A stretch of DNA of 64,000 nt, taken from assembly GCF_016406125.1 (NCBI RefSeq), contig NZ_CP066339.1, positions 310,001 to 374,000 on the forward strand, read 5' to 3'. Source of the stretch: Alicyclobacillus sp. SO9 (lineage in GTDB: Bacteria > Bacillota > Bacilli > Alicyclobacillales > Alicyclobacillaceae). A program made the translations under genes and the position numbers. Position 1 is the first letter of the stretch. The number at the start of each line of letters is the position of its first letter. This document shows, one piece after another, positions 53,515 through 58,206 of the stretch. The notes under the pieces were generated by a model that saw nothing but the letters and a program-made list of their open reading frames with translations, was not told where the DNA came from and made no database searches.

Positions 53515-56500
53515 GTGACTGTTGTGAATATTATGCAGAAATCATGTCGACTCATGTCGGGAAATGTAAAAATGGAATGGTGGGCTGTAAGGGTGAAAAG
53601 AATATTTAGCCGATTGTTTAAGGCTTTGGCTGCTGGGGTACTGCTTCTAATGCTGGTACCGCCAGGCATGGCTTTAGCAGCTACAACGACTGCAAAATAT
53701 GCAAATGTATTGGTTAGTGATGCTGGGCAAACTGGAAACTCTATTACAAATAGTAATACTTCAACAAGTATCGCTGTAGGTCCAAATGGGTACATATATG
53801 TTGTGTACCATGGATCCAATGGAATTCGAGTAGCTCGCAGTACAAATGATGGACAGAGTTTCGATTCGAGTGTCAAGATTCTGGGTACAGACTACGAGCC
53901 TTCGATTGCTGTTTCATCCACAGGTACTATTTATGTGAGCTGGGCAGATGCAAACGGGAATATTTGGATTGCTAAGAGTACCGATAACGCGAGTACCTTC
54001 TCTTCACCTGTTGAAGTCGGCTCAGAGGCTGCCGATGAATTTGCAGTCACAGGACCACGAGTTCATATGGCTGCTGACGGGACTCATGTGTACTTAATTG
54101 GTCCAGCAGGTGAAACAATTTACGTAAGTAGTGACAATGGAGACACTTTTAGCGCAGTCCATCTGTCTTCAACGGCGTACGTATTTTCAGATGTGCACGT
54201 CGATCCCGTAAATCACGATGTCATTGTCAATGAAGATAATCCATCCATTCGTTATTATGTCAGTACGAATTACGGAGAGTCTTTTGGCTCTGCTGTGGCT
54301 CCCACTGGAGATACCGTCAATTACTCCGTGGGAAGTGTATCTGCTAGTTCGAGCGGACACAACTTGTTTATCGCCGGGGTTGGGTCGACTGGATACAAAA
54401 TCGACCCGATTGCTCAAACGAATGCTACAGTCACGCTACCCAACGATTCTACAAATCAAGGCCGCTCAATTCAAGCAGACGGCTACGGGAATGTGGTCAC
54501 CGGTTATTCCGATGGCGCCCATGTATACTTCGCCGTAAGTCACGATTTTGGCAGTTCTTTCGGTTCACCGGTTCTGGTGACCGCAGGCACATCCGCCAAG
54601 GCTGCGATTAACTTGACCAACGGCGATGTCATGTTCCTCTATACAGACTCACAGGGTCATGTGTATCTGAATACCTATGCGAACCAATTGGTTGGGTACA
54701 ACTTGAACGTCTCTCTAAGCAGCCTTTCATTTAACGGCTTCTCAGGTTCATCGAGTTCTCCTCAGACGATTACGGTGACCAACAAGGGCACTAGTCCGAT
54801 GACCATTACAGGAGTGACTACAACCGGTCCTTTCAGTGCAACGAATACTATTTCAAACCCTATTCCCGTTGGCGGCACAGGACAAATTAGCGTGACCTTT
54901 CACCCAACAACAACGGGAACACAGACCGGACAACTCAGCATTGGTATTCAAGGAGCCACGAATCCACGTGTGATTCAACTGTCCGGAACTGCTGCGCCTC
55001 CTGCAGCTTTGTCTGTTACCAGTACCAGCTTGCCACAAGCGACAGCAGGCGCATCTTACTCGGGCAAACTGAGTTCTAATGGTGGGACTTCCCCAATCAC
55101 TTGGAGCGTAACAAAAGGTGCGTTGCCTACGGGACTGTCACTGTCTTCCGATGGTGCGCTCAGTGGAACACCGAAAAATTCAGGTTCCAGTACATTTACC
55201 GTACAAGCTAAAGACTCCAAAGGAACAACGGTTTCGCAGCAACTCACATTGACGGTCAATCCTTCACCGAGTATTACCACCTCGACACTTTCTGGCGCTA
55301 CCGTGGGCAGTAAGTACAATGAGGCACTTTCCATGACAGGCGGAACGGGGAACGATACCTGGTCGATAGCAAAGGGTTCGCTTCCATCCGGGCTGTCTCT
55401 GTCGGGTGCCGGTGTCATATCAGGGACTCCTGCGACTGCGTCCACTCAACAATTTACGGTTCAAGTGAAAGACCAAAACGGGGCTGTGGCCACGAAGCAA
55501 GTTTCCTTGACCGTTAACCCGGTTCCGAGCATTTCTGCGACGAATCTTCCTGGTGCAACGCTAGGCACTAAATATACACAGTCTATTTCAATTTCCGGGG
55601 GAACGGGGCCTTACACATGGAGTCTCGCCAACGGGAATTTGCCGAGCGGACTGTCTCTTGCGGCTGACGGCCAAATTACAGGTACACCTACCACAACCGG
55701 GACAACGCAATTCGAGGTAAAAGTGAAGGACGGCAATGGATCGGTGACAACCAAGCAGGTATCTCTTGCTGTCAATGCCGACCCAAAGGTTGCGACCCAA
55801 AGTCTGAAAGGCGCAACAGTAGGGGCAAAGTATCAAACACCCTTGTCCGTTACAGGTGGTACGGGTCCACTTACTTGGAGCATCACGAAGGGAAGTCTTC
55901 CGACTGGAATGAGTTTGGTGGGTTCAACCATTCAGGGAACACCGAGTGGGGCGGGTACAGCCCAGTTTACTTTACAAGTACAAGATGCAAACGGTGTTGT
56001 ATCTACCCAAGCTCTGTCCTTGACTGTAAATGGTGCTCCCAGTATTTCAACAACGACCTTGCCTGATGGAACTGTGGGTGCGAATTATCAGACAACACTG
56101 ACAGAAGCTAACGGTACTGGCTCATTCACCTGGACACTCGCAAAGGGCACCCTGCCAAACGGGCTAAGCCTCTCTCAAGGCGGGGAACTTACTGGAAAGC
56201 CATCGACTTCAGGAAGCAGTACCTTTACTGTGCAAGTCACGGACAGCAACGGCGTAACATCAACGAAGCAGCTCACACTGAAGATCAACCCTGTTCCATC
56301 CATCACCACTTCTTCTCTCCCAGTTGATACAGCGGGGATTCAATACCAACAGGCCTTAACTCTGACCGGAGGAACCAGTCCTGACACTTGGACCGTCGCT
56401 AAAGGAAGTCTACCGACTGGACTTAGCTTGTCTAAGAGCGGGATGATTACCGGTACCCCGACAAGTTCGTCGAATGGTCAGTTTACGGTACAAGTCACGG

Positions 56501-58137
56501 ATGCCAACGGAGCTTCAGCGACAAAGACCCTCTCATTAGCCGTTAATGGGAAGCCGAGCATCTCAACCTCCGTGTTATCTGATGCTACACAAGGAACGAC
56601 TTATCAGAAACAACTGAACATCACTGGCGGTACGGGTCCCTTTACTTGGTCGCTGCCATCCGGAAGCCTGCCAAGTGGTATGACGCTGAGCAACAACGGA
56701 GCGTTAAGCGGTGTGCCGACTGCAACTGGCAGTTACAAATTTACGGTGCAAGTGAAGGATAGTACGGGTGCAGTGGCAACGCAGCAGTTGTCGTTAACAG
56801 TGGACGCAACGCCCGCCATTACAATGTCAACACTACCTGGGGCGACAGTGGGCGCTCCGTATAAACAAACTCTCTCGATGTCCGGGGGGCTTCAACCCCT
56901 TGTTTGGAAGTTGGTACAAGGGAGTCTTCCGCAAGGATTGACGTTGTCGCAGAATGGCACGTTAAGCGGGACGCCCGCATCTGTTGGGGTTTCGCAATTT
57001 ACAATTGTGGTTACGGATGCCAATGGAGCGACAGGTACACACGAGTTCAAGTTCACTACCCATGCAGTCCCAAGTATTTCGATAAAGAACGTACCTGGCG
57101 CCACGATGGGTGGCACATACCATGGCGTATTACCCGTGAATAACGGGACAGGCCCTTTCACATGGATTTTGAGCCACGGTCAATTACCAAGTGGTTTGAC
57201 CCTTCATCATGACGGTACTATCACCGGTTCACCTGTCAACATAGGGTTGAGTCAGTTTTTAATTCAAGTTACGGATGCCAACGGAGTACAGGCCAATAAA
57301 CAAGTCTCGATGCAAGTGAATCCTACACTGTTGATTACGACGAAAACCTTACCGATGGTTCTTCAAGGCAAAACATATCAAGAGTCGATACAAACCACGG
57401 GAGGAACAGACCCGATTCACTTCACTGTAGCGTCTGGGTCTTTGCCTGGAGGACTAACACTCAACCCTGATGGAAGTATCACAGGCACCGCTGCTTCAAC
57501 CGGTATGTCGCAGTTTACGATAACTGCAACGGACGCAAATGGTGTAACCGCTGCGCAGGCATATACCCTATATGTCATCCCGGCAGCACCTACGGAGACG
57601 CTGAAAAAGATTGATGGTCAAAATATTGTGGGCTCTCAAGGAACGACTTTGAAAGCTGTTCAAGGACAGAGCACAGCAGTTCTACAGGTTCCAAACGGCG
57701 CTTACACCATGCCGATTCAAATGAACTTGACGACTGGTAGTGTGCCTTCAAACTTATTGGGAAGCAGCAGCAATTTCGTAGCTGCATTCGGCGTCAACTT
57801 CAATAGAAATTACGTGCCGAAGAAGCCCGTAGTGCTGACTATTTACAATCCGAACATTACTACGAATTCAACAATCTACAAGATTTCAAACGGGAAGCTT
57901 GTTCCAGTACACGCAGTCCTGTCGCCGGGAAAAGCAGTGATTAGCTTCACTTCCGATCCCGATTTCGTAGTCGCAAATCAGACCACCCCCAATGCAGTCA
58001 CAGCTCATACAGTTGTGCCGAAAGCCACATCACCGGTTACAGGAAAACCGTTTCTGTGGAACTACATTTTTGGCTCAGCCCTGTTAGCTGCTGGAGGCGG
58101 AATGCTCGTCATTTATAGAAAGAAAAAGAAGTATTAA
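53515..58137 (+). CDS. Large surface protein: sialidase-like BNR region, ten Ig-like (He_PIG) repeats, C-terminal anchor
   Basis: Up to 1540 residues; GTG 53515, ATG 53572 and GTG 53593 are possible starts, the last two best for the signal peptide (KRIFSRLFKALAAGVLLLML...MALA). Residues about 60-390 carry BNR/Asp-box-like repeats (ARSTNDGQSF, AKSTDNASTF, VSSDNGDTF). An immunoglobulin-like ASH/choice-of-anchor type domain follows (about 395-495). Ten repeats of about 86 residues then run to 1355. A last beta domain (1360-1510) precedes SPVTGKP, a hydrophobic helix and the tail RKKKKY, like a variant sortase signal. It is probably an adhesin or glycan-binding wall protein; catalytic sialidase residues are not evident. 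Confidence 0.85.
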   Translation: MTVVNIMQKSCRLMSGNVKMEWWAVRVKRIFSRLFKALAAGVLLLMLVPPGMALAATTTAKYANVLVSDAGQTGNSITNSNTSTSIAVGPNGYIYVVYHGSNGIRVARSTNDGQSFDSSVKILGTDYEPSIAVSSTGTIYVSWADANGNIWIAKSTDNASTFSSPVEVGSEAADEFAVTGPRVHMAADGTHVYLIGPAGETIYVSSDNGDTFSAVHLSSTAYVFSDVHVDPVNHDVIVNEDNPSIRYYVSTNYGESFGSAVAPTGDTVNYSVGSVSASSSGHNLFIAGVGSTGYKIDPIAQTNATVTLPNDSTNQGRSIQADGYGNVVTGYSDGAHVYFAVSHDFGSSFGSPVLVTAGTSAKAAINLTNGDVMFLYTDSQGHVYLNTYANQLVGYNLNVSLSSLSFNGFSGSSSSPQTITVTNKGTSPMTITGVTTTGPFSATNTISNPIPVGGTGQISVTFHPTTTGTQTGQLSIGIQGATNPRVIQLSGTAAPPAALSVTSTSLPQATAGASYSGKLSSNGGTSPITWSVTKGALPTGLSLSSDGALSGTPKNSGSSTFTVQAKDSKGTTVSQQLTLTVNPSPSITTSTLSGATVGSKYNEALSMTGGTGNDTWSIAKGSLPSGLSLSGAGVISGTPATASTQQFTVQVKDQNGAVATKQVSLTVNPVPSISATNLPGATLGTKYTQSISISGGTGPYTWSLANGNLPSGLSLAADGQITGTPTTTGTTQFEVKVKDGNGSVTTKQVSLAVNADPKVATQSLKGATVGAKYQTPLSVTGGTGPLTWSITKGSLPTGMSLVGSTIQGTPSGAGTAQFTLQVQDANGVVSTQALSLTVNGAPSISTTTLPDGTVGANYQTTLTEANGTGSFTWTLAKGTLPNGLSLSQGGELTGKPSTSGSSTFTVQVTDSNGVTSTKQLTLKINPVPSITTSSLPVDTAGIQYQQALTLTGGTSPDTWTVAKGSLPTGLSLSKSGMITGTPTSSSNGQFTVQVTDANGASATKTLSLAVNGKPSISTSVLSDATQGTTYQKQLNITGGTGPFTWSLPSGSLPSGMTLSNNGALSGVPTATGSYKFTVQVKDSTGAVATQQLSLTVDATPAITMSTLPGATVGAPYKQTLSMSGGLQPLVWKLVQGSLPQGLTLSQNGTLSGTPASVGVSQFTIVVTDANGATGTHEFKFTTHAVPSISIKNVPGATMGGTYHGVLPVNNGTGPFTWILSHGQLPSGLTLHHDGTITGSPVNIGLSQFLIQVTDANGVQANKQVSMQVNPTLLITTKTLPMVLQGKTYQESIQTTGGTDPIHFTVASGSLPGGLTLNPDGSITGTAASTGMSQFTITATDANGVTAAQAYTLYVIPAAPTETLKKIDGQNIVGSQGTTLKAVQGQSTAVLQVPNGAYTMPIQMNLTTGSVPSNLLGSSSNFVAAFGVNFNRNYVPKKPVVLTIYNPNITTNSTIYKISNGKLVPVHAVLSPGKAVISFTSDPDFVVANQTTPNAVTAHTVVPKATSPVTGKPFLWNYIFGSALLAAGGGMLVIYRKKKKY
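55006..57579 (+). repeat. Ten tandem 258-bp He_PIG (putative Ig) repeats
   Basis: Ten in-frame units average 85.8 residues. Each contains a G-x-Y segment, GGTGPxTWSxxxGSLPxGLSL, GxxxGTPxxxG, and FTVQVxDxNG. The DNA copies have diverged, so these are old protein-level repeats rather than a recent tandem expansion. Confidence 0.85.
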
Positions 58138-58172
58138 TAAGTAACGTGATGTTGCTGTTTCCAGTGTTTGTA

Positions 58173-58206
58173 AGCCTCCCTCCTTGCTGAGGGGGGCTTT
58201 TTATTG
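58173..58206 (+). terminator. Terminator after the surface protein gene
   Basis: AGCC-CCCTC near 58173-58182 pairs with GAGGGGGGCT (58189-58198) around a short loop and is followed by TTTTTATT. It lies about 35 bases after the stop. Confidence 0.8.

Follow-up and report, generated by a model that had tools for sequence, protein, structure and literature searches.

In most known sortase signals, position 1 is Leu; the protein encoded at 53515..58137 (+) of the DNA studied here ends in SPVTG, a hydrophobic segment, and a basic tail. That DNA, hereafter the window, comprises 64,000 nucleotides of Alicyclobacillus sp. SO9 (assembly GCF_016406125.1, contig NZ_CP066339.1, positions 310,001 to 374,000). 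How such a protein would be kept at the cell surface is the question that this locus raises, and a sequence-only reading of it had named two options, a special sortase and simple membrane anchoring. We put the probability at roughly three in four that a dedicated sortase branch, nearest to class D, cuts at SPVTG and attaches the protein to the wall.

Architecture of the protein

The 1540-aa open frame begins with GTG at 53515, which is merely the longest option, and alternative starts at 53572 (ATG) or 53593 (GTG) appear equally plausible by eye. From N to C terminus, the protein consists of a probable signal peptide (53593..53679, +; assigned by eye and ending ...GMALAA before residue ∼56), an Asp-box head, an ASH domain, ten He_PIG repeats, a pre-anchor domain, SPVTG, a hydrophobic segment, and RKKKKY. 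The sequence-only reading had described a 1540-residue frame with an ASH-like domain, ten He_PIG repeats, and SPVTG followed by a helix and RKKKKY, all of which the open frame, the Pfam matches, and the C-terminal residues bear out; the pre-anchor domain was missing from it. The ASH/HYDIN-type Ig domain occupies residues 410-493 (54742..54993, +; PF22544, 35.2 bits, cut-off 25.5), and the Ig-like He_PIG repeats follow at 55015..57570 (+) with a period of ∼86 residues. PF05345 (He_PIG) matches ten stretches in tandem with 348.3 bits against a cut-off of 24 (E 3.6e-106), and ten LP.GLSL-type cores are spaced 85-86 residues apart.

A possible intrinsic terminator (58172..58199, +), with an 11-pair stem and a T run, lies ∼35 nt past the stop codon; five terminator-like sites were observed against a mean of 4.9 in shuffles, and this stem was the longest. 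Among the neighbouring genes examined, one for a ROK regulator lies divergently on the upstream side, and a response regulator, a kinase, and ABC-type genes come downstream. No sortase was found among them, and the anchor is therefore unexplained by anything nearby.

Propeller head

The beta-propeller head (approximately residues 83-388; 53761..54678, +) carries five Asp boxes at residues 109, 155, 205, 250, and 342 (starting at 53839, 53977, 54127, 54262, and 54538). In 2000 composition shuffles the mean count was 0.0145 and the maximum was one, although the shuffles were scanned with a slightly narrower pattern than that behind the count of five. An AlphaFold2 model of the head and ASH domain, computed from three sequences, is composed of nearly all strands (mean pLDDT 67, pTM 0.64) and supports a propeller fold with moderate confidence, as would be expected if the earlier description of a BNR region was correct. 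That description also called the region sialidase-like, which fits the five Asp boxes in the modelled propeller and does not extend to Pfam: nothing in this part exceeded a cut-off (Sortilin-Vps10 reached 21.1 bits against 33), and no sialidase or BNR family did so.

The top Foldseek match was a Micromonospora sialidase, and Photorhabdus PLL/PHL lectins were among the best (TM 0.68-0.74 by target). VIA-align matched many propellers, including those of WD40 proteins and lyases, at Z 25-28, so that the folds nearest to the head span WD40 and lyase propellers as well as sialidases and fucose lectins. Sialidases were absent among the 50 VIA-align matches listed, which we do not count as evidence. 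Because the VIA-align matches show the propeller fold to be generic, they support the fold rather than a function and do not discriminate a sialidase from other propellers.

An active sialidase (GH33) would account for the Asp boxes and the top Foldseek match, but we consider this very improbable. A FRIP/YRIP-type motif is part of the Arg triad of GH33 sialidases, and in residues 56-395 the pattern [FYW]R[ILV][PA] is absent and there are only five Arg, for which reason sialidase activity is unlikely; the lack of a sialidase or BNR family over its cut-off argues in the same direction. Judged as a member of GH33, the head thus has Asp boxes in a propeller, albeit in a moderate-confidence model, and lacks the FRIP/YRIP-type motif. 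A carbohydrate-binding lectin tying the cell to polysaccharide or to its neighbours is a more plausible, if still tentative, assignment in view of the PLL/PHL matches. Against it stand the generic nature of the fold and the finding that none of 58 other genomes of the order holds the head at E≤1e-5, so that the order offers no homologues in which to compare a binding site.

Head homologues were not found in phage or plasmid records, and in IMG/VR they were found on three contigs. The IMG/VR contigs bearing L229:1-1515 and L230:3-1166 are classed as viral and carry, next to these loci, genes that by eye are WhiB-like and ribonucleotide-reductase-like; they may be host DNA.

Sorting signal and sister tails

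The motif SPVTG occupies residues 1506-1510 (58030..58044, +), and the hydrophobic segment and basic tail RKKKKY follow at 58051..58134 (+). The tail of the window protein scores 18.3 bits against the TIGR01167 (LPxTG) cut-off of 15.9 and has the hydrophobic segment and basic tail of such signals, with SPVTG in place of the literal Leu-Pro-x-Thr-Gly pentapeptide.

Other proteins with this signal were sought with a tail profile that favours PVTG, as it was built from five of this genome's own tails. At E≤10 it matched 17 places in the genome, twelve of which, including the window protein, had E≤1.2e-6. These twelve tails have the form [K/S/T]P[V/M]TG, with Lys in eight, Ser in three, and Thr in one at position 1, and Val in eleven and Met in one at position 3. 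The remaining five places (E≥0.149) are without xP[VM]TG; in one of them (E 3.84), a 74-aa frame contains CPETG. The sequence-only reading had proposed a search for other SPxTG proteins, and eleven sister xP[VM]TG tails are what the genome holds. A bare DNA pattern for SPVTG gave 51 matches against 44 in a reversed control and was dropped in favour of the profile; because that pattern was little above its control, the claim of sister tails rests on the profile. The LPxTG model reached 27 places in the genome at E≤10, covering 10 of the 12 tails, and in none of these 27 loci did a scripted check detect [LIMV]PxT[GA] with a hydrophobic segment and basic tail behind it.

Sortases and exosortases of the genome

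PF04203 identified two sortases in the genome (88.1 and 86 bits, cut-off 26.6), which disposes of the objection to a sortase-based anchor that there might be none. Both also exceed the TIGR01076 cut-off, and the catalytic His, Cys, and Arg are invariant in all 11 sortases aligned. In NCBIfam they are nearest to class D and below every class cut-off: one scored 86.5 bits with NF033746 (cut-off 165) and 95.4 with NF058671 (cut-off 140), and the other 80.6 and 89.7, respectively. Their best sequence match in the PDB is 4d70, listed as a "sortase family protein", which we take to be C. perfringens SrtD.

One of the sortases directly follows, in an overlapping frame, a 214-aa protein ending SPVTGLP. 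In three genomes including this one (L051:7354-10487, L190:5118-7918, L191:2901-4185), a small SPVTG protein and a short sortase were seen by eye to lie ahead of genes for a sigma factor and an anti-sigma-like protein. No tail neighbour was found for the second sortase, which groups in the tree described below with three sortases that have them. By eye, this second sortase (L002, L187:7299-8468) is extended at its C terminus by ∼190 residues, and its surroundings include LytR- and CpsD-like genes.

The gene of the window protein lies far from both sortases: along the contig, the nearer one is 1.09 Mb away, and on a circular contig the distance to the other would be ∼0.63 Mb. In similarity to the tail of the window protein, the genome's own small SPVTG protein scored 72 and the other ten own tails 35-50.5; among relatives, the small type of sortase partner reached 74 at best and some tails of the larger type 65-69. 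Because its small SPVTG neighbour has the most similar tail in the genome, the sortase at C1:1457260 is the likelier enzyme of the two, and this resemblance points weakly to its acting on the window protein.

The genome also has two matches to the exosortase family PF09721 (C1:478652-481154), and the signal might in principle be processed by these enzymes instead of a sortase. This is the least probable of the readings considered, as the tail that accompanies exosortases is of another type and no link between these enzymes and xPVTG tails was seen (Fisher p 0.74). That second C-terminal signal, approximately [MLV]PE[VT]P[YFL]A with a helix and basic tail, accompanies exosortases over the PF09721 cut-off in these Gram-positive genomes: a PExPYA-type tail was present in 13 of 14 genomes with an exosortase vs. 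3 of 27 without (p 4e-7; loci L234-L273), and in five genomes enzyme and tail are within 250 bp of each other. In this genome such tails are at C1:497033, C1:500745, and C1:5092692. Half of the exosortase genomes (7 of 14) lack a PF04203 sortase match. When one of this genome's own exosortases was tested, it passed no NCBIfam subfamily cut-off and matched only the TIGR04178 signature.

Pairing of the signal with one sortase branch in relatives

This genome and those of 40 relatives, 41 in all, yielded 44 sortase matches and 45 tail matches. Among 28 sortases with A[AG]H[ND]xT[WYF], 22 were preceded, on their own strand, by a tail with its end 249-552 bp ahead of the sortase domain, compared with none of the other 16 (Fisher p 3.6e-7). 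These 16 were 11 with AGHRDTV, four with LITC, and one cut off at a contig end; four of the AGHRDTV sortases had less than 450 bp of contig upstream, and without these four the p value was 3.3e-6. No tail was found near any AGHRDTV or LITC sortase in the 41 genomes, the same four of 11 being short of upstream sequence. Tails also occurred downstream of a sortase, two at ∼2 kb and one at 4.1 kb, and the profile overlooked one more adjacent tail, in A. montanus (L213). Most sortases of the branch have frames of 370-450 aa.

The A[AG]H[ND]xT[WYF] group was named only after we had seen which sortases had tail neighbours. However, a tree made without neighbour data placed all 28, together with 20 added rows from named genomes (of 39) and the cut-off sortase, on a single branch (SH-aLRT 95, length 1.22) that excludes 10 AGHRDTV and four LITC rows. 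It was made by a quick method with long-branch warnings, and the eleventh AGHRDTV sortase (106 aa) was left out as too short. Of two AGHRDTV sortases scored on the SrtD model (cut-off 140), one passes with 173.8 bits and one just misses with 134.1; the one LITC sortase tested is nearest to class F, below the cut-off.

Counted by genome, a tail at E≤2.1e-4 was present in 20 of 20 genomes with a branch sortase and 0 of 21 without. This limit was picked after reading the matches and drops five weak ones; with these kept (E≤0.01), the figures are 20 of 20 vs. 5 of 21. Counting in the cut-off sortase of genome G040, which the tree places on the branch and whose genome is without a tail, gives 20 of 21 vs. 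0 of 20. In every form of the table, p is 2e-7 or less. The five weak matches, all in genomes without a branch sortase (E 3e-4 to 5.4e-3), were rejected: PxTG is missing from three, a fourth has SPVSG ahead of a helix in a longer frame, and the fifth has SPVTG in a 47-aa frame lacking a hydrophobic segment.

A first scan of named genomes with the pre-anchor domain as the query found nothing, and the remainder of that scan therefore used sortases. An adjacent same-strand xPxTG tail was present at 21 of 39 branch-sortase loci in named genomes; 17 of the 39 belong to assemblies already in the 41-genome set and are not fresh evidence. Among the 22 fresh loci, eight had an adjacent tail, all within the 13 loci of Bacillota. 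Alicyclobacillus macrosporangiidus and Tumebacillus avium are among these; in Sulfobacillus thermotolerans the tail is on a neighbouring divergent gene, and two other Sulfobacillus loci had none. None of nine Actinomycetota loci had an adjacent tail, the nearest exceptions being a TPVTGKP almost 5 kb away and an LPFTG tail on the other strand.

A scripted selection of P[VIDEM]TG with position 1 left free yielded 47 tails, 12 from this genome and 35 from relatives; one MPVTG row (L158) was dropped, and L108 shows that the selection overlooked at least one true tail. At position 1, Ser occurs in 19, Lys in 16, Thr in 4, Ala in 4, Gln in 2, Asn in 1, and Asp in 1, and Leu in none of the 47. Position 3 is Val in 39 of 47, position 7 is Pro in 40 of 47, and all 35 tails from relatives have Thr before the motif, for a consensus of T-[S/K]-P-V-T-G-x-P.

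These results bear on the alternative that the SPVTG tail is left uncleaved and the protein stays in the membrane by its C-terminal helix. A position 1 other than Leu is consistent with this alternative, the hydrophobic segment and RKKKKY would retain the protein in the membrane, and the gene is far from both sortases. However, the same type of tail stands beside one branch of sortases in relatives and coincides with it by genome, and the class B sortase SrtB of C. difficile is reported to cleave SPKTG (PMC4371152), so that a non-Leu residue at position 1 is compatible with sorting. We thus regard membrane retention as unlikely. The special sortase of the sequence-only reading is well supported, as a branch that pairs with the signal by neighbourhood and co-occurrence has two members in this genome, along with the eleven sister tails; of that interpretation as a whole, the special sortase and, with moderate confidence, the propeller fold stand, simple membrane anchoring is now the weaker option, and glycan binding is a tentative possibility.

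Pre-anchor domain

Between the last He_PIG repeat and the anchor is a domain of ∼130 residues with a ZU5 fold (about residues 1358-1492; 57586..57990, +), which is common to 9 of the 12 own tail proteins. With the anchor removed, hhalign matched it to the corresponding region in the larger type of sortase partner with a probability of 99.8% (E 1.8e-29) and to the small type with 91.6% (E 8.2e-7, 10 proteins). The larger-partner set comprised 12 of 26 proteins chosen by eye as holding the domain, and 10 of the 12 are immediate sortase neighbours. Apart from the motif, the shared domain is therefore a second tie of the window protein to the sortase neighbourhood. By eye, two larger partners beside long sortases (L218:4357-5730, L201:4210-5628) start with GDSITFGYN, like SGNH hydrolases.

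The AlphaFold2 model of the domain had a pLDDT of 84.8. Foldseek matched it to the ZU5 fold (E 1.4e-5), with ankyrin chains in the first seven rows and four of these at E≤0.001, and VIA gave Z 11.8 over 122 residues (rmsd 3.3). In Pfam, no family matched the window protein's domain at E≤1, and ZU5 matched 3 of 11 rows of the domain (best E 0.015).

Discussion

The anatomy of the window protein, its sister tails, the pairing of sortase and signal, and the shared pre-anchor domain were all established by computation. With two sortases and twelve [K/S/T]P[V/M]TG proteins in the genome, the SPVTG anchor is no stray variant. In the mechanism that we propose, the signal peptide would direct export, and the hydrophobic segment and basic tail at the C terminus would keep the protein in the membrane. 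A sortase of the lineage-specific branch, itself in the membrane and with its His in A[AG]H[ND]xT[WYF], its Cys in LE[TAS]CYP, and a downstream Arg, would then cleave inside SPVTG, by analogy at the T-G bond, and link the cleaved protein to the cell wall. The ZU5-fold domain may present the motif, the ASH domain together with the ten He_PIG repeats would form a stalk, and the propeller would be held outward as a putative binding head. A broader proposal is that the Alicyclobacillus line of Bacillota, along with relatives including Sulfobacillus and Tumebacillus, has a distinct class of sortase that reads T-[S/K]-P-V-T-G-x-P together with an adjacent ZU5-fold presenting domain, anchoring a dozen surface proteins of this genome instead of LPxTG sorting; on this the balance is even.

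A lineage with a polar or basic position 1 and an enzyme branch of its own gives a natural opportunity to test how that position is recognized by sortases, and the branch could supply an orthogonal enzyme for ligation. The surface proteins of these bacteria also become predictable; all twelve here escape a search for the literal LPxTG motif. In the open-access literature, with subscription journals mostly outside its scope, we found no paper on a sortase with SPVTG or KPVTG, and no title or abstract on sortases with Alicyclobacillus or Sulfobacillus that dealt with an xPVTG system; the available part of PMC5817068 held nothing on one.

Compared with known systems, the signal described here shares with the LPxTG signal (TIGR01167, PF00746) a C-terminal xPxTG, hydrophobic helix, and basic tail, but position 1 is S, K, T, A, Q, N, or D and never Leu in the 47 tails. 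C. difficile SrtB shares SPxTG with this system but is of class B, whereas ours is nearest to class D, with x mostly Val and xP after the motif. Class D (NF033746, NF058671) is the best-scoring class, and SrtD of C. perfringens is reported to prefer LPQTGS and to form one operon with a likely anchor-bearing substrate (PMC4498605), an arrangement also seen here; the own sortases nevertheless reach only 80.6-95.4 bits against cut-offs of 165 and 140, with AAH[ND]xT and LE[TAS]C where the class D-like sortases of relatives have AGHRDTV and L.TC. The class E SrtE of Actinoplanes, which appears to read LPVTG and has three substrates (PMC13251363), has xPVTG in common with this system but differs in its Leu at position 1 and in its enzyme class. 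The IMG/VR propeller-ASH-LPVTG protein (L229, L230) is 42-44% identical over the part of the head and ASH domain that the contigs cover and has a C-terminal PVTG anchor, but it ends in LPVTG and, by eye, has an Fn3-like part instead of He_PIG. The pre-anchor domain has the same fold as ZU5 of ankyrin, UNC5, and ZO-1, but in the window protein it is without a Pfam match and is placed just before a sorting motif. The mechanism would thus match that of known sortases, and the novelty is the branch and its code.
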